Positions 3,268 through 64,000 of a stretch of DNA of 64,000 nt are shown piece after piece. Source of the stretch: Clostridia bacterium. Lineage in GTDB: Bacteria > Bacillota > Clostridia > Christensenellales > Aristaeellaceae. The first letter of the stretch is position 1, and each line of letters begins with the position of its first letter. Both the position numbers and the translations under genes were made by a program. The DNA lies in assembly GCA_017550745.1 (NCBI GenBank), contig JAFZOG010000040.1, positions 1-64,000 of the forward strand. Direction: 5' to 3'. The notes beneath the pieces are model-generated. The model had not been told where the DNA came from, searched no databases, and was given only the letters and a program-made list of their open reading frames with translations.

Positions 3268-3567
3268 ATGAGCGGTAACAAACGCGTGTTTGCCCTGCTG
3301 CTTTGCATCGGCATGGCGCTGATGCTGCTTGTTTCCTCCGCCTATCTGGTCAGCGTTTCAGGACACCACTGTGATGGGGACGGCCACTGCGAAATCTGCG
3401 AAGTGGTGATCCGGACTGAAGCGCTGCTTTCAGGCTTTGTTTTCTGCCGGGCGGCTCTTGCGTTTTTTGCGTATATGACCATGCGCCGGGAGGAAAAGCT
3501 TGAAAGAAGACCGACTTTTGCGCTGCCGCTGACCCTGGTAGGCCGGAAGGTACAGCTGAACAATTGA
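3268..3567 (+). CDS. Small membrane protein with a His/Cys metal-binding-like motif
   Basis: The 99-residue protein has a hydrophobic N-terminal segment (about residues 8-30), then the short motif HHCDGDGHCEIC (about 33-44), then a second hydrophobic stretch (about 50-70) and a basic tail. AGGAGGG precedes the ATG. The His/Cys cluster lies between two membrane segments and the gene is first in a zinc-uptake operon. A role in binding or sensing Zn2+ outside the membrane is therefore inferred. I know no characterised homologue. Confidence 0.7.
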   Translation: MSGNKRVFALLLCIGMALMLLVSSAYLVSVSGHHCDGDGHCEICEVVIRTEALLSGFVFCRAALAFFAYMTMRREEKLERRPTFALPLTLVGRKVQLNN

Positions 3568-3700: not shown

Positions 3701-4726
3701 ATGAAAAAGTTTGCTGTGCTGCTGACAGCCATCGCACTGCTGCTGAGTATCTGTATTCCCGCCGCCGTGACGGCTGAAAACAAAACCGTAAAAATCGTAA
3801 CGACCATCTTCCCGATCTATGACTGGGTGCGGGAAATCGCCGGGAGTGAAACGGACATGGAGCTGACCATGTTGCTGGACTCCGGCGTCGATCTGCACAA
3901 CTACCAGCCCACCGCCCAGGATATTCTGAAAATCGCCCAGTGCGACCTGTTCATTTTTGTGGGCGGTGAATCCGACGAATGGACGGAGGACGTGATCGCC
4001 ACCGCCCAGAACAAAGACATGATCGCGATCAGCCTGCTGGATGCCCTGGGTGAGGACGTGAAGGAAGAAGAAATCGTGGAGGGCATGGAGCATGAGCACC
4101 ACCACGATGAGGACGAAGACCACGACGAACACCACCACGACGAGCATGACCACGACGAGCATGAGCATCATCACGAGGATGAAGAAAAAGAATTTGACGA
4201 GCACGTGTGGCTGAGCCTGCGGAACGCGGAAAAGCTGACCAAAGCCATTGCCGATGCGCTGTGCGAAATCAACCCCGATGCTGCTGAAATGTACCAGGCG
4301 AATGAAGAAAAGTATCTGGAAAAGCTGATCGCCCTGGACGCGGAATATGAAGCCGCGGTGAAGGAAGCCGCATACAAAACCGTCCTGTTCGGCGACCGCT
4401 TCCCCTTCCGCTATATGATGGACGATTACGGCCTCACCTACTTTGCCGCCTTCACCGGCTGCTCCGCCGAAACGGAAGCCAGCTTCCAGACCATCCTGTT
4501 CCTGGCCCAGAAGCTGGATGAGCTGGGCCTTCCCGCCGTGCTGACCATCGAGAACCCCAAGACCCGGATGCCGGAGACCATTGTTTCCTCCACCCAGGCA
4601 AAGAACCAGAAGATCCTGTCCATGAACTCCATGCAGGGCGTGACCGCCCAGGAAGTAAAGGAGGGCGTGACTTACCTGTCCGTAATGGAAAGCAACCTGA
4701 CCGTCCTCAAGGAAGCGCTGAACTGA
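3701..4726 (+). CDS. znuA: Zinc/manganese ABC transporter substrate-binding protein (ZnuA/AdcA-like)
   Basis: This 341-residue exported protein (signal peptide about residues 1-24) captures Zn2+ or a related metal for the ZnuBC permease. The chosen ATG has GGAGG nine bases upstream; upstream in-frame starts lack one. Visible features are the first ligand loop DLHNYQPT, an acidic, very His-rich loop (about residues 129-166) typical of zinc-binding cluster A-I proteins, and DEHVWLSLRNA with the second ligand. The usual third-histidine region reads GDRFPFRYMMDDYG, so that histidine is absent; GCSAETEAS follows. This is a variant binding site. The operon continues with znuC and znuB. Confidence 0.92.
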   Translation: MKKFAVLLTAIALLLSICIPAAVTAENKTVKIVTTIFPIYDWVREIAGSETDMELTMLLDSGVDLHNYQPTAQDILKIAQCDLFIFVGGESDEWTEDVIATAQNKDMIAISLLDALGEDVKEEEIVEGMEHEHHHDEDEDHDEHHHDEHDHDEHEHHHEDEEKEFDEHVWLSLRNAEKLTKAIADALCEINPDAAEMYQANEEKYLEKLIALDAEYEAAVKEAAYKTVLFGDRFPFRYMMDDYGLTYFAAFTGCSAETEASFQTILFLAQKLDELGLPAVLTIENPKTRMPETIVSSTQAKNQKILSMNSMQGVTAQEVKEGVTYLSVMESNLTVLKEALN

Positions 4727-5974: not shown

Positions 5975-6825
5975 GCGTTTTTCAGCAATTGGAAATGTAC
6001 CTGCGGATGCCCTTCGTCCAGTACGCGCTGATCGTGGGCACGCTGATCGCTTTGTGCTCCTCCCTCCTGGGCGTAACGCTGGTGCTCAAACGCTTCTCCT
6101 TCATCGGCGACGGGCTTTCCCACGTAGCGTTCGGCGCCATGGCCATTGCGGGCGTGCTGCACATCATGAACGAGATGCTGTTCGTGCTGCCGGTGACGGT
6201 GGTCTGCGCCGTGCTGCTGCTGCGCTCGGGCCAGAACGCGAAAATCAAGGGCGACGCGGCGATTGCCATGATTTCCGTCGGCGCGCTGGCTGTGGGCTAC
6301 ATGCTGCTGAACCTGTTTCCCACGTCCAGCAACGTGTCCAGCGACGTGTGCACCAGCCTGTTCGGCTCCACCTCCATCCTGACGCTTACACAGCTGGAGG
6401 TGTGGCTGTGCATCGGCCTGTCCGTGGCGGTGGTGGTGATTTTCCTGCTGTTTTACAACAAGATATTCGCCGTCACCTTTGACGAGGATTTCGCCCGGGC
6501 CGCGGGCGTGCGGGCGGAGACGTACAACCTGCTCATCGCTGTGGTGGTGGCGGTCATTATCGTGCTGGCCATGAATCTGGTGGGCTCCCTGCTGATTTCC
6601 GCGCTGATCATTTTCCCGGCGGTCAGCGCCATGCGGCTGTTCAAAAGCTTCAAGAGCGTCACCGTCTGCTCGGCGGTGCTGTCCGTCAGCTGCGCGCTGA
6701 TAGGGATGCTGGTGTCTATCCTGGGCAGCACACCCGTCGGCTCCACCATCGTGGCGGTGGACATCGCCGCGTTCCTCATTTTTTCCCTGATCGCCAAGGT
6801 GGCTGCGCGTCAAAGAAAGGGCTGA
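5971..6825 (+). CDS. znuB: Zinc/manganese ABC transporter permease
   Basis: This 284-residue integral membrane protein of the ABC-3 family has about eight transmembrane segments. The family pattern FIGDGLSHVAFGAMAIAGVL lies near residue 45, and there is a typical NLVGSLLISALIIFPAVSAM segment in the second half. It forms the translocation channel fed by ZnuA and driven by ZnuC. Its start overlaps the znuC stop. Confidence 0.93.
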   Translation: MSVFQQLEMYLRMPFVQYALIVGTLIALCSSLLGVTLVLKRFSFIGDGLSHVAFGAMAIAGVLHIMNEMLFVLPVTVVCAVLLLRSGQNAKIKGDAAIAMISVGALAVGYMLLNLFPTSSNVSSDVCTSLFGSTSILTLTQLEVWLCIGLSVAVVVIFLLFYNKIFAVTFDEDFARAAGVRAETYNLLIAVVVAVIIVLAMNLVGSLLISALIIFPAVSAMRLFKSFKSVTVCSAVLSVSCALIGMLVSILGSTPVGSTIVAVDIAAFLIFSLIAKVAARQRKG

Positions 6826-7666: not shown

Positions 7667-8950
7667 TTATACCTTTTCCAGCGCCTGGGCAATATCGGCA
7701 ATCAGATCGTCCGCGCTTTCCAGGCCGCAGCTCATGCGCACCAGCCCCGCGGGGATGCCCGCGGCTTTGAGCTGCTCTTCGCTCATCTGGCGGTGGGTGG
7801 TGGAGGCGGGGTTCAGGCAGCAGGTGCGGGCGTCGGCCACATGGGTTTCAATGGCCGCCAGGCGCAGGCTGTTCATGAACACGGAGGCAGCTTCCCGCCC
7901 GCCTTTCAGTTCAAAGCTCACCACGCCGCAGGAACCGTTGGGCAGGTATTTCTTCGCCCGCTCGTGATACTTGTCTCCCGGCAGGCCGCAGTAACTGACG
8001 CTGGCCACCTTGGGATGCTGCCGTAAATACTCCGCCACGGCCTGCCCGTTTTCGCAGTGCCGCGCCATGCGCACGTGCAGGCTTTCCAGGCCCAGGTTCA
8101 GATAAAAAGCGTTTTGAGGGGACTGGATGGAGCCGAAGTCCCGCATCAGCTGGGCGGTGCATTTTGTAATAAAGGCCCCGGCATTGCCGAACTTTTCCGC
8201 ATAAGTGATGCCGTGGTAGCTGTCGTCCGGGGTGCACAGGCCGGGGAATTTGTCCGCGTAAGCCATCCAGTCAAACTTCCCGCTGTCCACGATGGCGCCG
8301 CCCACGCCCACCCCGTGGCCGTCCATATACTTCGTGGTGGAGTGGGTCACGATGTCCGCACCCCACTCAAAGGGGCGGCAATTGACCGGCGTGGCAAAGG
8401 TGTTATCGATGATCAGCGGCACGCCGTGGGCGTGGGCTGCCCTGGCAAACTGCTCGATGTCCAGCACCGTCAGGGCGGGGTTGGCGATGGTTTCGCCGAA
8501 CACCAGCCTGGTATTCGGGCGGAACGCCGCGTTCAGCTCCTCATCCGTGCAGTCAGGGGACACAAAGGTGGTCTCGATGCCCATCTTTGCCATGGTGACG
8601 CTGATCAGGTTGAAGGTGCCGCCATAGATACTGGACGAGGCCACCATATGGTCGCCGCAGGAAGCCAGGTTGAACATGGCGAAGAAATTCGCCGCCTGGC
8701 CCGAGGAGGTCAGCATCGCCGCCGTGCCGCCCTCCAGCGCGGCGATTTTCGCCGCCACATAATCGTTGGTGGGGTTTTGCAGGCGGGTGTAAAAATATCC
8801 GCTGGCCTCCAAATCAAACAGCTTCCCCATGTCCTCGCCGGTATCGTATTTAAAAGTCGTGGACTGAACGATGGGAATCTGCCGCGGCTCGCCGTTGCCG
8901 GGCGTGTAGCCGCCTTGAACGCATTTGGTTTCAATGCGGTAATCGCTCAT
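7667..8950 (-). CDS. metY: O-acetylhomoserine sulfhydrylase (aminocarboxypropyltransferase)
   Basis: The 427-residue cytosolic PLP enzyme of the Cys/Met metabolism family makes homocysteine from O-acetylhomoserine and sulfide. Typical motifs are SGYFYTRLQNPT, the PLP-phosphate pocket SSGQAANF, IIDNTFATP and the PLP lysine in HSTTKYMDGHG (about residue 207). The length matches MetY (about 425-430) rather than MetB/MetC (about 380-400). It is transcribed alone from a strong promoter with a short leader, so no SAM riboswitch or T-box fits upstream. Confidence 0.92.
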   Translation of the reverse strand: MSDYRIETKCVQGGYTPGNGEPRQIPIVQSTTFKYDTGEDMGKLFDLEASGYFYTRLQNPTNDYVAAKIAALEGGTAAMLTSSGQAANFFAMFNLASCGDHMVASSSIYGGTFNLISVTMAKMGIETTFVSPDCTDEELNAAFRPNTRLVFGETIANPALTVLDIEQFARAAHAHGVPLIIDNTFATPVNCRPFEWGADIVTHSTTKYMDGHGVGVGGAIVDSGKFDWMAYADKFPGLCTPDDSYHGITYAEKFGNAGAFITKCTAQLMRDFGSIQSPQNAFYLNLGLESLHVRMARHCENGQAVAEYLRQHPKVASVSYCGLPGDKYHERAKKYLPNGSCGVVSFELKGGREAASVFMNSLRLAAIETHVADARTCCLNPASTTHRQMSEEQLKAAGIPAGLVRMSCGLESADDLIADIAQALEKV

Positions 8951-59520: not shown

Positions 59521-60093
59521 TTGAACGCTGATAAAAACGCGCTGCGCAGGCGGATGCTGGCGGAGCAGAAAGCGCTGCCGGACGATTATGTCCTTAAAGC
59601 AGGCGAAGCCATGGAGCAAGCGGTGTTATCGCTGGCGCAGTATCGCCTTGCCCGCGCTGTTTTCCTCTATCTCAGCATGCCGAAAGAACCGGCCACCTCC
59701 CGGATCCTGCGGCACGCCCTGGAAAGCGGCAGGGAGGTCTACGTTCCCAAATGCGTAAACAGCCGGGAAATGCTGGCGGTCCGCCTGCGAAGCCTGGCAG
59801 GGCTTGCCCCTGGTCGGTATGGCATCCCGGAACCCCAAAGCGTCGAAGAATCAAGAACGGCTGACAGTCTGGATCTGATCCTGGTTCCCTGCGTCTGCGC
59901 GTCGCAGGACGGCAGGCGTCTGGGACACGGCGCCGGGTATTATGACAGATTCCTGGCCGGAAAGGCGGAAAACGCGGTCTGCCTCTGCTTTCACAGGATG
60001 CTGCGGGATGACATCCCGGTATTGGGAAACGACGTCCGCATGCCCGCCGTACTGACGGAGCGGGGGATGTTCGTCAATCAGCCACCGCGGTGA
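59521..60093 (+). CDS. 5-formyltetrahydrofolate cyclo-ligase
   Basis: The 190-residue enzyme (YgfA/MTHFS) uses ATP to convert 5-formyl-THF to 5,10-methenyl-THF, recovering the folate cofactor. Seen are the N-terminal LRRRMLAEQKALP with the basic nucleotide-binding stretch, the substrate loop VFLYLSMPKEPAT and the C-terminal ATP site QDGRRLGHGAGYYDRFL. The start is TTG, supported by GGAGGGAGG. It lies between luxS (divergent) and the T-box leader and seems monocistronic. Confidence 0.93.
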   Translation: MNADKNALRRRMLAEQKALPDDYVLKAGEAMEQAVLSLAQYRLARAVFLYLSMPKEPATSRILRHALESGREVYVPKCVNSREMLAVRLRSLAGLAPGRYGIPEPQSVEESRTADSLDLILVPCVCASQDGRRLGHGAGYYDRFLAGKAENAVCLCFHRMLRDDIPVLGNDVRMPAVLTERGMFVNQPPR

Positions 60094-60121
60094 AAAACAA
60101 ATGAAATACAGCGGCATGATA

Positions 60122-60150
60122 TTGACAAAACAGGCCCGCTGTGTTACGCT
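60122..60150 (+). promoter_or_regulatory. Promoter of the T-box/ior operon
   Basis: A perfect TTGACA (60122-60127) lies 17 bases before a weak -10 TACGCT (60145-60150). Transcription would start near 60157, just before Stem I of the T-box. Confidence 0.6.
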
Positions 60151-60156
60151 TTCAAG

Positions 60157-60431
60157 CGATAAAGCAAACCTTTGAAGCGAAAGTCAAACCGGAAGGAGCG
60201 CCCGCAGAGAGCGGGGGCAGCTGAAAACCCGCGGAAGGCTCGCCGGCAAATGGGTCGCTGAGGGAAAGGGGAACGAAAGCAGCGGCATGCTTTTCAGTAT
60301 CCGGACCGTGTGCCCGCGTTAAGGGCAGAGGATGTGTCGGCATCCTCGCAAGAGTGGACCCAAAGCGGTTCAGCAAAGGTGGTACCATGGGTTTGTGTAT
60401 ACAGGCTCGTCCTTGATGGGACGGGCTTTTT
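60157..60431 (+). promoter_or_regulatory. T-box riboswitch leader, Trp (UGG) specifier
   Basis: Stem I is closed by AGCGA (60176-60180) and TCGCT (60255-60259). Above the specifier loop come CCGG/CCGG and GAGC/GCTC helices, then an AGAGA bulge and an apical hairpin. The loop's 3' side reads CAAATGGG, which places UGG (60251-60253) as specifier, followed by the expected purine. The conserved T-box sequence AAAGGTGGTACC (60375-60386) precedes the terminator hairpin GCTCGTCC/GGGACGGGC with a T-run (60405-60431). Uncharged tRNA-Trp should cause read-through into iorA. Confidence 0.88.
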
Positions 60432-60482
60432 CATTCCCGCCACGCTGAATACGGACAATACAAACCGAGGGAGGGAGCGCAA

Positions 60483-62285
60483 TTGCATTGTGAATTCCTG
60501 ATGGGCAATGAAGCCATTGCCATGGGCGCCATCGCCGCCGGGGTAAACCTGGTCTGCGGCTATCCAGGCACGCCCAGCACCGAAGTGCTGGAAACGGTGG
60601 CGAAGCATCGGCCCGAAGGCACCTACGTGGAATGGTCGGTGAACGAAAAAACAGCCATGGAAATCGCAGGCGGGGCGGCCTATTCCGGGGCCCGCGCGCT
60701 GGTGACCATGAAGCAGATGGGGCTGAACGTGGCCTCCGATCCCTTTATGTGCCTGAGCTATATTGGCGTAAAGGGCGGGCTGGTGGTGCTGGCGGCGGAC
60801 GACCCCGGCCCCATTTCCTCCCAGACCGAACAGGACACGCGCACCTTCGCCGCGTTCGCCAAAGCGCCGGTGTTCGATCCTGCATCCGCCCAGGAAGCCT
60901 ACGACATGATCCAGGCGGCGTTTGATTTTTCCGAAAAGTACCAGACGCCGGTGATCCTGCGGCCCACCACCCGCGTGTCCCACGGCTACGCCTCCATCCG
61001 GGTGAAAGACCCGGAGGAATATTATGTAAACCGGCCCGAGGGCTTTGTGAAAGACACTGCCCGCTGGGTCATCTTCCCCAGGCAAAGCTATCAGAACCAC
61101 CTGAAAATCGAGAAGCGCAACGCGGAATTGCAGGCCGTTCTGTCAGACAGCCCTTTCAATCCGATCCTGCCCGGTCCCGCCGGCGCGAAAAAGGGCGTTG
61201 CCGCCTCCGGCATCAGCTTTACCTACGCCATGGAAGCCCGGCAGCAGCTGGGCGAAATGCCCCTGTTCAAAGCAGGCGTTCCCTTCCCCTTCCCGGAGGA
61301 AGCCGCTGTGCGCTTCCTGTCAGGGTTAGACGAGGTGCTCTGCCTGGAGGAGCTTGACCCCGTGATCGAGCGGAGCCTGATCTACGTCTGCGGCAAGTAC
61401 GGCCTGAAAACGAAGATCCTTGGCAAGCAGACCGGCCACATGCCCGCCGCCGGGGAAAACACCCGGGACGGTGTGCTGGCGGCGATGGCCTCCTTCCTGG
61501 GCCAATCCCTGCCCGCCCTGCCCGATTTGAAGCTGCCTCCCCTGCCGGTGCGCCCGCCGGTGCTGTGCGCCGGGTGCCCTCACCGGGCGTCCTTCTACGC
61601 CGTCAAGCAGGCCATGAAGGGGCAGAAAACCATCTTCTGCGGCGACATCGGCTGCTACACCCTGGGCAACGCCCAGCCTTTGGACATGGTGGACACCTGC
61701 CTGTGCATGGGCGCGGGCCTCGGCATTGCCCAGGCCGTGAACCATCTGGACGGGGAAACCGAATGCTTTGCCTTCGTGGGAGATTCCACCTTCTTTGCCT
61801 CCGCCATTCCCGGGGTGGTGAACGCGGTCTACAATCAGGCCCAATTCACCCTCATCGTGCTGGATAATTCCACCACCGCCATGACCGGCCACCAGCCCCA
61901 TCCCGGCACCGGCAAAACCATGATGGGCGAAGCCGTGGCCAGGGTGAGCATCGAAAGCATGCTGCGGGGCGCAGGGGTTTCACACGTGGAAACCGTCGAC
62001 CCCCTCCGCCACGCCCTGGCGGTGGAAGCGGTAAAGCGCGCGGCCGCGCTGCCAGGCGTCAAGGCCGTGATCTTCAAATCCCCCTGCGTGGTGCTGGCCA
62101 AGCCCCAGGGCCGGGTCACCGTCGATCCCGGCCAGTGCATCGGGTGCAAAAAATGTATCCGGGAAATCGGCTGTCCCGCGCTGTTTTTCGCGGATGGCAA
62201 GGCCGCGGCCGATCCCGCCCTGTGCACCGGCTGCGGGCTGTGCGCGCAGCTGTGTCCTGCAAAGGCGATCCAGGGAGGTGAATAA
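60483..62285 (+). CDS. iorA: Indolepyruvate:ferredoxin oxidoreductase, alpha subunit
   Basis: The 600-residue subunit, with IorB, interconverts arylpyruvate plus CoA and arylacetyl-CoA plus CO2, using ferredoxin. The N-terminal pyrimidine domain has GYPGTPSTEVLE. The TPP domain (about 350-530) has CAGCPHR, GDIGCYTLG and GDSTFFASAIPG with NSTTAMTGHQPHP. The tail has two [4Fe-4S] motifs (CIGCKKCIREIGCP, CTGCGLCAQLCP). Length is normal. The TTG start at 60483 has GGGAGGGAG upstream; ATG 60501 is the alternative. Confidence 0.95.
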   Translation: MHCEFLMGNEAIAMGAIAAGVNLVCGYPGTPSTEVLETVAKHRPEGTYVEWSVNEKTAMEIAGGAAYSGARALVTMKQMGLNVASDPFMCLSYIGVKGGLVVLAADDPGPISSQTEQDTRTFAAFAKAPVFDPASAQEAYDMIQAAFDFSEKYQTPVILRPTTRVSHGYASIRVKDPEEYYVNRPEGFVKDTARWVIFPRQSYQNHLKIEKRNAELQAVLSDSPFNPILPGPAGAKKGVAASGISFTYAMEARQQLGEMPLFKAGVPFPFPEEAAVRFLSGLDEVLCLEELDPVIERSLIYVCGKYGLKTKILGKQTGHMPAAGENTRDGVLAAMASFLGQSLPALPDLKLPPLPVRPPVLCAGCPHRASFYAVKQAMKGQKTIFCGDIGCYTLGNAQPLDMVDTCLCMGAGLGIAQAVNHLDGETECFAFVGDSTFFASAIPGVVNAVYNQAQFTLIVLDNSTTAMTGHQPHPGTGKTMMGEAVARVSIESMLRGAGVSHVETVDPLRHALAVEAVKRAAALPGVKAVIFKSPCVVLAKPQGRVTVDPGQCIGCKKCIREIGCPALFFADGKAAADPALCTGCGLCAQLCPAKAIQGGE

Positions 62286-62286
62286 C

Positions 62287-62880
62287 ATGCGTAAAAACAT
62301 CGTGCTGTGCGGCGTAGGCGGCCAGGGCACCGTGCTGGCTTCCCGGCTCATTTCCGCCGCGGCCATGGCCAAGGGCATTCCCGTCATGAGCGCCGAAACC
62401 ATCGGCATGGCCCAGCGCGGCGGCAGCGTTTTCAGCCATCTGCGCCTGGGCGAGGGCGTGTATTCCCCCATGATCGCCAAGGGCGAGGCCGACCTGATCC
62501 TGGCCTTTGAGCCGGGCGAGGCGGTGCGGATGCTGCCGTACCTGAAGAAAGGCGGGCAGGTGGTGGTTTCCTCCCGGCCTGTGATGCCCGTGACCGCCAC
62601 CCTGAAAAGCGAGCCCTACGCGGCACAGGCCATGATCCGCTTCCTCCGGGAGCATGTCAAAAACGTGATGGTGGTGGACGCCGAAGCGGCCCTCAGCGAC
62701 GTTGGGTCCCCCAAGGTGCTGAACCTGATCCTGTTGGGAGCGGCGGTTCAAAGCGGGGCCCTGGGCCTCACCGAGGACGAAATCAAAGCCGCCATCCTGC
62801 AAAAAATCCCCGAAAAATTCCACGCCCTCAATTTCCGCGCCCTGGCGTGGGCAAAGCAGGGTGCTTCTTCATCCCCATAA
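62287..62880 (+). CDS. iorB: Indolepyruvate:ferredoxin oxidoreductase, beta subunit
   Basis: The 197-residue gamma-domain subunit of the 2-oxoacid:ferredoxin oxidoreductase family binds the CoA side and pairs with IorA. It has the start GVGGQGTVLASRLISAAAM, the AQRGGSVFSHLRLG motif and the C-terminal NLILLGAAVQSGAL. AGGGAGGTG precedes ATG 62287, one base after the iorA stop, so the two are tightly coupled. Confidence 0.95.
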   Translation: MRKNIVLCGVGGQGTVLASRLISAAAMAKGIPVMSAETIGMAQRGGSVFSHLRLGEGVYSPMIAKGEADLILAFEPGEAVRMLPYLKKGGQVVVSSRPVMPVTATLKSEPYAAQAMIRFLREHVKNVMVVDAEAALSDVGSPKVLNLILLGAAVQSGALGLTEDEIKAAILQKIPEKFHALNFRALAWAKQGASSSP

Positions 62881-62921
62881 ATCCCTGAACCCAAATCATA
62901 TACAGAAAGAAGGCACAGAGC

Positions 62922-64000
62922 ATGCGGATCTCAAACGAACAATTGGCCCAGGTAAACCACCAGATCGAAGCGCTGCGCTCTGCGGGCAGCTTCTACGGCA
63001 GGAAGCTGGAAGCGGCGGGCATCCAGTCCGTCAGCACCCCCGAAGCGTTTGAACAGCTGCCCTTTTCCGAAAAAAGCGACCTGCGCGACGCTTATCCCCT
63101 GGGCCTGATGACCGCGCCGGAAAAGGACATCGTGCGCATCCATTCCTCCTCCGGCACCACCGGCCTGCCCGTCATCATCCCCTACACCCGGAAGGATGTG
63201 GAGGACTGGGCCATCATGTTCGCCCGCTGCTACGAATACGCGGGCATCACGCCCATGGACCGCATCCAGATCACCCCGGGCTACGGCCTGTGGACCGCGG
63301 GCATCGGCTTCCAGAACGGCGCGGAAAAACTGGGCGCCATGGCCATCCCCATGGGCCCCGGCAACACGGAAAAGCAGCTGCAGATGATGCAGGACATGGG
63401 CTCCACCGTGCTCTGCTCCACCTCATCTTACGCCCTGCTGCTGACGGAAGAAATCGAAAAGCGCGGCCTCAAAAGCAAGATCAAGCTCAGGAAGGGCGTC
63501 ATCGGCTCCGAGCGCTGGAGCGATAAGATGCGCAAACGCATCGCCGACGGCCTGGGCATCGAGCTGTACGACATCTACGGCCTCACCGAGATCTACGGCC
63601 CCGGCATCGGCATCAACTGCAAATACAACACCGGCATGCACTACTGGGACGATTATCTCTACATCGAAATCATTGATCCGCATACCTTAAAGCCCGTGCC
63701 GGACGGGGAAATGGGCGAGATCGTAATCACCACGCTGGTAAAGGAAGGCGCGCCCCTCATCCGCTACCGTACCCACGACCTGAGCCGCATCATTCCCGGC
63801 GAATGCCCCTGCGGAAGCAGGCACCCGCGCCTGGACACCATCATGGGCCGCACCGACGATATGATGAAGATCAAGGGCGTCAACGTGTTCCCCAGCCAGA
63901 TCGAGGAAATCCTGCAAGGCTTCCCCGAGGTCAGCAGCGAATACCAGATCCGCATCTCCCACCTGGACGGCAAGGACACCATGCGCATCTACGTGGAAAC
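62922..64000 (+). CDS. paaK: Phenylacetate-CoA ligase-like (aryl acid activation), 3' truncated by the window
   Basis: About 359 residues are visible and the frame is open at the window end (full length about 430). The adenylate-forming fold is clear: HSSSGTTGLP (P-loop, about 75-84), a Gly-rich GYGLWTAGIGF stretch, YGLTEIYGPG (A5) and IRYRTHDLSRI with GRTDDMMKIKGVNVFP (A8). It should form phenylacetyl-CoA or indoleacetyl-CoA from the acid and ATP. It follows iorB by 41 bases in the same operon and would supply the substrate for IorAB running in the carboxylating direction. Confidence 0.92.
   Translation, partial: MRISNEQLAQVNHQIEALRSAGSFYGRKLEAAGIQSVSTPEAFEQLPFSEKSDLRDAYPLGLMTAPEKDIVRIHSSSGTTGLPVIIPYTRKDVEDWAIMFARCYEYAGITPMDRIQITPGYGLWTAGIGFQNGAEKLGAMAIPMGPGNTEKQLQMMQDMGSTVLCSTSSYALLLTEEIEKRGLKSKIKLRKGVIGSERWSDKMRKRIADGLGIELYDIYGLTEIYGPGIGINCKYNTGMHYWDDYLYIEIIDPHTLKPVPDGEMGEIVITTLVKEGAPLIRYRTHDLSRIIPGECPCGSRHPRLDTIMGRTDDMMKIKGVNVFPSQIEEILQGFPEVSSEYQIRISHLDGKDTMRIYVE

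Follow-up and report, generated by a model that had tools for sequence, protein, structure and literature searches.

T-boxes switch genes on when the matching tRNA is uncharged, and indolepyruvate oxidoreductase (IOR) is usually listed as a catabolic enzyme that oxidizes indolepyruvate. In the aryl-acid pathway of methanogens, IOR works towards the arylpyruvate, starting from an activated aryl acid, and rumen anaerobes reportedly make tryptophan from indole-3-acetate, as Allison and Robinson are said to have described in 1967. Here we describe a 64,000-nt stretch of the Clostridia bacterium assembly GCA_017550745.1 (bases 1-64000 of contig 75, which ends at base 64294; hereafter the window) in which a tryptophan-type T-box leader precedes genes for the two IOR subunits, iorA and iorB, and for a PaaK-type arylacetate-coenzyme A (CoA) ligase. 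The direction that we propose for IOR is that of the methanogen pathway and the proposed physiology is that of the rumen anaerobes; here, instead, the genes stand in a bacterial operon behind a Trp-sensing leader, with trpP, trpB2 or trpS linked to them in relatives, and they offer the rumen physiology candidate genes and a control circuit.

The described Trp T-boxes, such as that of trpXYZ in Streptococcus suis (PMC9382623) and those collected in the T-box database TBDB (PMC7778990), share with the leader in the window a UGG specifier, a UGGN bulge, and competing terminator and antiterminator structures. In the window, however, the genes under control are an oxidoreductase and a CoA ligase and not an uptake system. 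The same enzyme kinds are found in Bacteroides, where an IOR is paired with an AMP-forming arylacetate-CoA ligase and the authors suggest biosynthesis on the basis of the ligase chemistry (PMC13285125). The reductive reading of this enzyme pair is therefore already published as a suggestion for Bacteroides; regulation is not discussed in sections 2.7 and 2.8 or the Discussion of that paper. In a full-text literature search, which covered few subscription papers and no supplements, T-box was nowhere combined with indolepyruvate and tryptophan, nor T-box riboswitch with indolepyruvate ferredoxin oxidoreductase, and no paper united four of the five terms reductive carboxylation, ferredoxin oxidoreductase, T-box, branched-chain and rumen. 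The main text of a 2008 T-box survey (PMC2494555) does not contain indolepyruvate, ferredoxin, phenylacetate, CoA ligase or oxidoreductase, and on bacterial genes for the rumen conversion of indoleacetate to tryptophan we found no literature besides PMC13285125.

From the comparisons below, we estimate a probability of roughly 80% that the operon is a tryptophan-supply module that builds tryptophan from indoleacetate with IOR running in reverse. An earlier note on this DNA had arrived at this purpose from the letters of the window, and the comparative evidence indicates that this first reading was very probably right. What is new here is the recurrence of the UGG specifier, the linked trpS, trpB2 and trpP genes, a TRAP-like alternative to the T-box, and a parallel for valine and isoleucine.

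The earlier note described a complete T-box leader ahead of the genes, and this description holds. The leader RNA (60163..60417, + strand) matches RF00230 over the full model (cmscan of bases 60080-60500: 53.4 bits at E 5.1e-11, spanning positions 1-219 of the 219 in the model), is kept in relatives, and has covarying helices. Stem I with its specifier loop, an antiterminator with a UGGN bulge and an overlapping terminator are all present. The antiterminator (60376..60414, +) consists of the helices AAGG/CCUU and AUGGGU/GCUCGU flanking the T-box bulge; it overlaps an intrinsic terminator, identified by eye as GCUCGUCC-loop-GGACGGGC-UUUUU (60405..60431, +), and a hairpin at the terminator site is present in both the minimum-energy and the centroid fold. 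The Rfam covariance check that the note had proposed yielded this match, but its score lies below the gathering score of 93 bits: a whole-window Rfam scan at that threshold does not list the leader, which was recovered in E-value mode. Because 2 of the 16 T-boxes in this genome at E ≤ 0.001 pass 93 bits, we regard the cut-off as strict for this genome. Leaders of the same operon elsewhere do exceed it (L164, 93.1 bits; L234, 107.7 bits).

The minimum free energy of the leader is unremarkable (z -0.70; equalled by 20 of 100 shuffles). In the Stem I helices on either side of the specifier loop, 63 of 66 cells are paired and 8 of 11 pairs show changes on both sides, a covariation that none of 500 shuffles reached. 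In the antiterminator, all 70 cells over seven sequences are paired and three pairs changed on both sides; its covariation score was matched by none of 500 shuffles, and the number of both-sided pairs by 77 of 500.

To read the specifier, we used a rule derived from 20 aligned Stem I sequences and a decoding script, which takes the codon that precedes the GAG at the Stem I base, or a variant of this GAG, by 6 nt. This rule gives UGG at 60251..60253 (+), in the Stem I specifier loop, as the earlier note had read it, and AAAUGG is invariant in the six ior leaders that were aligned. Applied to other T-boxes of the same genome, the rule decodes valS (GUC), alaS (GCC), metG (AUG), pheS (UUC), serS (UCC), asnB (AAC), cysE (UGC) and a leuA-like gene (CUC) as expected, the downstream genes having been named by eye and without a family search; for the proS T-box it gives CCC, at an anchor that is weaker. 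The alternative registers AUG and GGU were rejected, since a single rule decodes the T-boxes of the named genes.

The T-box bulge, UGGU (60380..60383, +), is predicted to pair with the GCCA acceptor end of tRNA-Trp. The one tRNA-Trp (anticodon CCA) among the tRNA hits inspected, 30 out of 38, carries a discriminator G, so the fourth bulge position would form a G:U wobble pair. According to TBDB, a G:U wobble at the discriminator is found in 46% of Trp T-boxes, and U at the variable bulge position is common among them (PMC7778990). We considered whether UGGU is unfit for a tRNA-Trp with discriminator G and rejected this, because the wobble is common for Trp and sister leaders carry UGGC; across the 13 ior leaders described below, the bulge is UGGU in seven and UGGC in six.

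Downstream of the leader follow iorA (60483..62285, +; 600 aa), an iorB-like gene (62287..62880, +; 197 aa) and the ligase gene (62922..64000, +; 411 aa), which ends at contig base 64157, its last 157 bases lying beyond the window end. The three genes are those that the earlier note had named. IorA passes the IOR alpha equivalog TIGR03336 (719.6 bits; cut-off, 650.9), IorB carries the POR domain PF01558 over cut-off (120.1 bits), and the ligase carries both AMP-binding (PF00501) and AMP-binding_C_2 (PF14535) over cut-off. The name of the iorB-like gene rests on its partner and position and not on the IOR beta equivalog TIGR03334. The solved chain nearest to the ligase by sequence is 4r1l, a phenylacetate-CoA ligase (E 1.1e-105).

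We propose the following mechanism. Uncharged tRNA-Trp would pair with the UGG specifier and the UGGU bulge and stabilize the antiterminator, which would allow transcription to read through into iorAB-paaK. The ligase would then convert an arylacetate, most likely indole-3-acetate released by neighboring bacteria, to its CoA ester with ATP in an AMP-forming reaction. With reduced ferredoxin and CO2, IorAB would carboxylate the CoA ester to indolepyruvate, the reverse of the reaction usually listed, and some aminotransferase would turn indolepyruvate into tryptophan. Within this scheme, we infer the substrate of the ligase, the direction of flux and antitermination in vivo; a ligase of the AMP-forming type favors activation of the acid.

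We then asked how often such a leader recurs on ior operons. The 114 ior loci compared were the window, 80 loci from named genomes (the best 80 of 578 IorA relatives), four from genomes related to that of the window and 29 obtained by sampling 391 genomes across the class, 34 of which had an iorA match (30 loci taken, 29 of them new); loci from different collections may repeat a genome. Four loci were excluded before counting: L134 and L135, which are the places of L048 and L163, respectively, L167, which is partial, and L168, a paralogue within the window's own genome. Forty-two of the 114 were scanned for T-boxes with the cmscan covariance model and 72 by text pattern only, with text-pattern matches partly followed; the upstream flank is shorter than 250 bases in L107, L118, L119, L199 and L225, and L048 starts inside its leader.

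A T-box leader was found on 13 of the 114 loci (the window, L048, L049, L050, L127, L164, L166, L216, L231, L233, L234, L235 and L236). The search for the same leader in relatives that the note had called for returned 12 further ior loci, and the specifier is UGG in all 13. The T-box-bearing genomes with a handle fall under seven family codes (f1, f23, f28, f32, f53, f66 and f90); L127 is a Cellulosilyticum by name, and its family is not matchable to the seven codes. The linkage is widely kept, with iorB-like open reading frames (ORFs) in 79 of 84 loci and paaK-like ORFs in 69 of 84, several loci being cut short.

This uniformity bears on the possibility that the module mainly turns phenylacetate into phenylalanine, with Trp sensing standing in for a lack of aromatic amino acids in general. 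IORs accept phenyl-, hydroxyphenyl- and indolepyruvate, a ligase of C. difficile accepts phenylacetate, hydroxyphenylacetate and indoleacetate (both PMC13285125), and for the rumen the formation of phenylalanine from phenylacetate has been described (PMC7356843). However, UUC is the specifier in none of the 13 ior T-boxes, although the window's own genome has UUC T-boxes on pheS and on an ABC transporter, and the genes linked to the operon in other genomes (trpS, trpB2 and trpP) are tryptophan genes. We therefore consider phenylalanine an unlikely main product of the module and favor tryptophan.

The linked genes are as follows. In L164 the order is T-box-iorA-iorB-paaK-trpS, with trpS over the cut-off of TIGR00233, and in L231 it is T-box-trpB-like (trpB2)-iorA-iorB-paaK, with TIGR01415 over cut-off. 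In L048-L050 the T-box is followed by trpP-ecfA1-ecfA2-ecfT-iorA-iorB-paaK, that is, by an energy-coupling factor (ECF) transporter; its S component exceeds the cut-off of PF17099 (TrpP) in L049 and in L050, and the L048 copy is 85% identical to that of L049. Such TrpP-type ECF transporters occur in six ior loci (L048-L050 and L228-L230). L073 has paaK-iorA-iorB and then a separate T-box, UGG by eye, with trpE (TIGR00564 over cut-off), the sole match of a trpE search across the loci. In L060 and L062, iorABK has a TrpB-like gene in its neighborhood, and a second paaK comes after that gene. What the sequences show directly is the T-box with its UGG specifier, the gene set, the way in which these genes stay linked, and their repeated ties to Trp sensing and trp genes.

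The arrangement in L048-L050, the closest relatives, raises the question of whether the T-box in the window is a leftover, belonging to a transporter that once stood between it and iorA, so that its control of ior is meaningless. In those three loci the T-box precedes trpP and the ECF module, which is not at this place in the window, and no T-box was detected in the congener L163. Yet a UGG T-box stands directly 5′ of iorA in eight other loci (L127, L164, L166, L216, L233, L234, L235 and L236), and in L231 the T-box precedes trpB2-iorABK. On the IorA tree, moreover, the T-box label needs five changes, of which at least four are forced by well-supported branches; gain and loss are indistinguishable on this tree, which does not include L067 and L100 and is partly unsure owing to the long branches L164 and L165. 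We consider a leftover very unlikely.

A second tryptophan sensor may act on the same genes. The trp genes of Bacillus are controlled by attenuation through TRAP (MtrB), with (G/U)AG repeats before a terminator; a TRAP-regulated leader has about 11 (G/U)AG triplets 2-3 nt apart and an overlapping antiterminator, together with an mtrB gene. L228, L229 and L230, which belong to one genus, have the order trpP-ecfA1-ecfA2-ecfT-iorA-iorB-paaK and gave no T-box match in the covariance scan. Their leaders (L228, about 3729-3830; L229, about 3324-3430; L230, about 8000-8160, - strand) instead contain (G/U)AG repeats followed, by eye, by a hairpin and T run. Like the Bacillus system they combine repeats before a terminator-like hairpin with a TRAP gene; here, however, the repeats precede trpP-ECF-iorAB-paaK.

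The triplet runs number nine, seven and four in L228, L229 and L230, against longest runs of four, five and five in 1000 dinucleotide shuffles, counted with a spacing of 1-3 and one non-consensus unit allowed, a measure picked after seeing the sequences. TRAP (PF02081) is encoded in all three genomes, with the MtrB equivalog over cut-off in the one checked, and among 14 control genomes it was found in B. subtilis only. Several results count against a firm assignment. Six of 1000 shuffles match the L230 run, which is also equalled elsewhere in the same locus; a stricter chain gives runs of 5, 4 and 4, where the longest in shuffles are 4, 4 and 4; by triplet density L229 does not stand out (179 of 2000 shuffles); and TRAP is also present in 5 of 14 other genomes searched. 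We regard TRAP attenuation of L228-L230 as a candidate second tryptophan sensor on the ior operon.

Taken at face value, the enzyme names would suggest the opposite direction, in which IorAB oxidizes indolepyruvate to indoleacetyl-CoA and the ligase frees indoleacetate, as in oxidative fermentation of aromatic amino acids. The usual listing of IOR supports this, as does the presence of trpA in 25 of the 34 class-draw genomes with this iorA. An oxidative arylpyruvate pathway is described in a Clostridium, and clusters of the pyruvate:ferredoxin oxidoreductase (PFOR) family occur with a kinase or an ADP-forming ligase (PMC13285125). The ligase of the window is of the AMP-forming type, unlike the kinase or ADP-forming ligase of those oxidative clusters. 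Furthermore, a T-box answering to uncharged tRNA-Trp, or a TRAP-like leader, would start degradation just when Trp is short, and some of the operons include trpS, trpB2 or trpP. We judge catabolism to be very unlikely and retain the reductive synthesis of tryptophan as our reading.

The state of the ordinary tryptophan pathway gives a mixed picture. In the window's genome (3.75 Mb, 186 contigs), we found no match to TrpA and none to indole-3-glycerol phosphate synthase (IGPS, trpC). Across 60 genomes, this one and 59 relatives, TrpA was found in eight and IGPS in eight; among 28 other members of the genus, in two and one, respectively. This genome also has UGG T-boxes with UGGC bulges in front of a TrpB-like gene and of the gene for a TrpX-like binding protein, the latter under the TrpX cut-off. 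Where ior carries a T-box, trpA is missing from 8 of 10 genomes, compared to 6 of the 25 examined without such a T-box (p 0.0056, uncorrected for kinship; the genomes of L049, L050 and L127 are outside this comparison, and G047, which has a partial IorA and has trpA, was left out). Among the 60 relatives, loss of trpA was not significantly associated with this iorA (trpA lacking in 6 of 6 vs 46 of 54; p 0.58).

Several points weigh against the tryptophan-supply reading, in addition to the caveats on the TRAP-like repeats. In the class sample, trpA is present in 25 of the 34 genomes with this iorA, compared to 152 of 357 others, and two of the T-box-bearing genomes (G361 and G409) have trpA. 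The module goes with the ordinary Trp pathway and is not a simple stand-in for a lost one. No T-box was seen on 101 of the 114 ior loci, a count that spans the 42 covariance scans and the 72 text-pattern searches and includes some short flanks; in iorAB-paaK operons lacking a T-box, the main use could be the conversion of phenylacetate to phenylalanine. IorB falls under the IOR beta equivalog TIGR03334 (175.8 vs 205.8 bits), and the ligase falls under the PaaK equivalog TIGR02155 (383.9 vs 646.3 bits), for which reason we call it PaaK-type rather than PaaK. There is no aminotransferase inside the operon, and the genome comes as a 186-contig bin with 88.8% completeness and 7.45% contamination. 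Most of the comparative results favor the earlier note's proposal of tryptophan supply, among them the uniform UGG specifiers, the linked trp genes, the TRAP-like leaders and the lack of trpA and trpC matches in the genome itself; the wider distribution of trpA and the T-box-less majority do not. Because trpA is present in most class genomes with this iorA and absent in 8 of 10 T-box carriers, we suggest that the module is an addition to the ordinary pathway and perhaps also its replacement.

IOR genes are usually read as a sign of tryptophan degradation and as a source of indoleacetate in the gut. If the direction can be told from the regulation, many of the IOR-ligase operons found in Firmicutes of the rumen and gut may use up indoleacetate instead, which would change how metagenomes are read for indole metabolites. 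Candidate genes and a control circuit would then be at hand for a rumen physiology reported decades ago, and regulatory RNAs would become a tool for assigning direction to reversible enzymes.

A parallel for branched-chain amino acids is found in the same genome. Two paralogous proteins that combine helix-turn-helix (HTH), cupin and AMP-ligase parts are each encoded behind a T-box, one with a Val specifier (GUG; contig 74, L129 1868-2115, +) and one with an Ile specifier (AUC; contig 38, L128 10464-10767, -). The best NCBIfam match of both is MbcS, far below its cut-off (428 and 412 against 850), and we refer to them as MbcS-like. In Staphylococcus aureus, MbcS is the activating enzyme for 2-methylbutyrate and isobutyrate (PMC10026030), two acids that serve as Val and Ile precursors in the rumen (PMC7356843). 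Contig 74 also has a VorB-like ORF, incomplete in the stretch examined (334.5 bits against a cut-off of 399); it is encoded on the strand opposite to the T-box, some 1.1 kb away, and a single 228-aa ORF separates the two. The leaders are conserved in relatives: of 37 distinct leaders decoded by eye, 25 read GUG, GUA or GUC (Val), nine read AUC (Ile) and three stayed undecoded.

An HTH-cupin-AMP-ligase match (E ≤ 1e-120, in some genomes to the ligase part only) is present in 44 of the 60 genomes, namely in 42 of 48 without ketol-acid reductoisomerase compared to 2 of 12 with it (p 5.6e-6), and the contrast persists when the 34 better genomes are taken by themselves (19 of 23 vs 2 of 11; p 0.00055), both values being uncorrected for kinship. 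These sequences suggest a strategy with a Trp branch, in which a UGG T-box or TRAP acts on iorAB-paaK, and a Val/Ile branch, in which T-boxes with GUN or AUC act on MbcS-like ligases. We find it reasonably probable that the strategy is general, such that anaerobes without the ordinary pathways build amino acids from fermentation acids and CO2, with the ligase gated by the shortage signal of the amino acid. If so, the leader codon would report both the direction of the 2-oxoacid:ferredoxin oxidoreductase and the substrate of the ligase.

Two other T-boxes of this genome stand before genes of possibly related function. On contig 97 (L132 2185-2420), a UAC (Tyr) T-box lies 5′ of a protein of MocR/aminotransferase fold, whose best match is PdxR under cut-off and which is possibly an aromatic aminotransferase. 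On contig 1 (L131 1501-1753), a UUC (Phe) T-box lies 5′ of a TrpX-like binding protein, under cut-off, beside ORFs that by eye resemble a permease and an ATPase; these genes are a possible phenylalanine transporter.

Peptide-based control was also considered. Aromatic leader peptides 5′ of iorA showed no excess over shuffles, and because they are no commoner than in shuffles, peptide attenuation is not general for iorA. In L060 (5426-6260) and L062 (8643-9470), short leader ORFs with FYWYWF or FYWFWF, translated by eye, precede a hairpin and T run and sit 5′ of the TrpB-like gene and second paaK; they look like aromatic peptide attenuation.

Around the leader in the window, a sigma-70-type promoter-like site, identified by eye and unscored, is formed by TTGACA (60122-60127), a 17-nt spacer and TACGCT (60145-60150; whole site 60122..60150, +). 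The iorA leader of the congener L163 (G026; about 6150-6250) has a similar promoter and a short hairpin with a T run, with no T-box found. A second IorA of the window's genome, on contig 12 (L168 4873-6690, -), is 41% identical to the first and over the TIGR03336 cut-off, with no T-box match; this more distant kind accounts for most matches among the 46 of 60 genomes with an IorA match. Directly 5′ of the leader in the window, an ORF at 59521-60093 resembles, by eye only, a 5-formyltetrahydrofolate cyclo-ligase.

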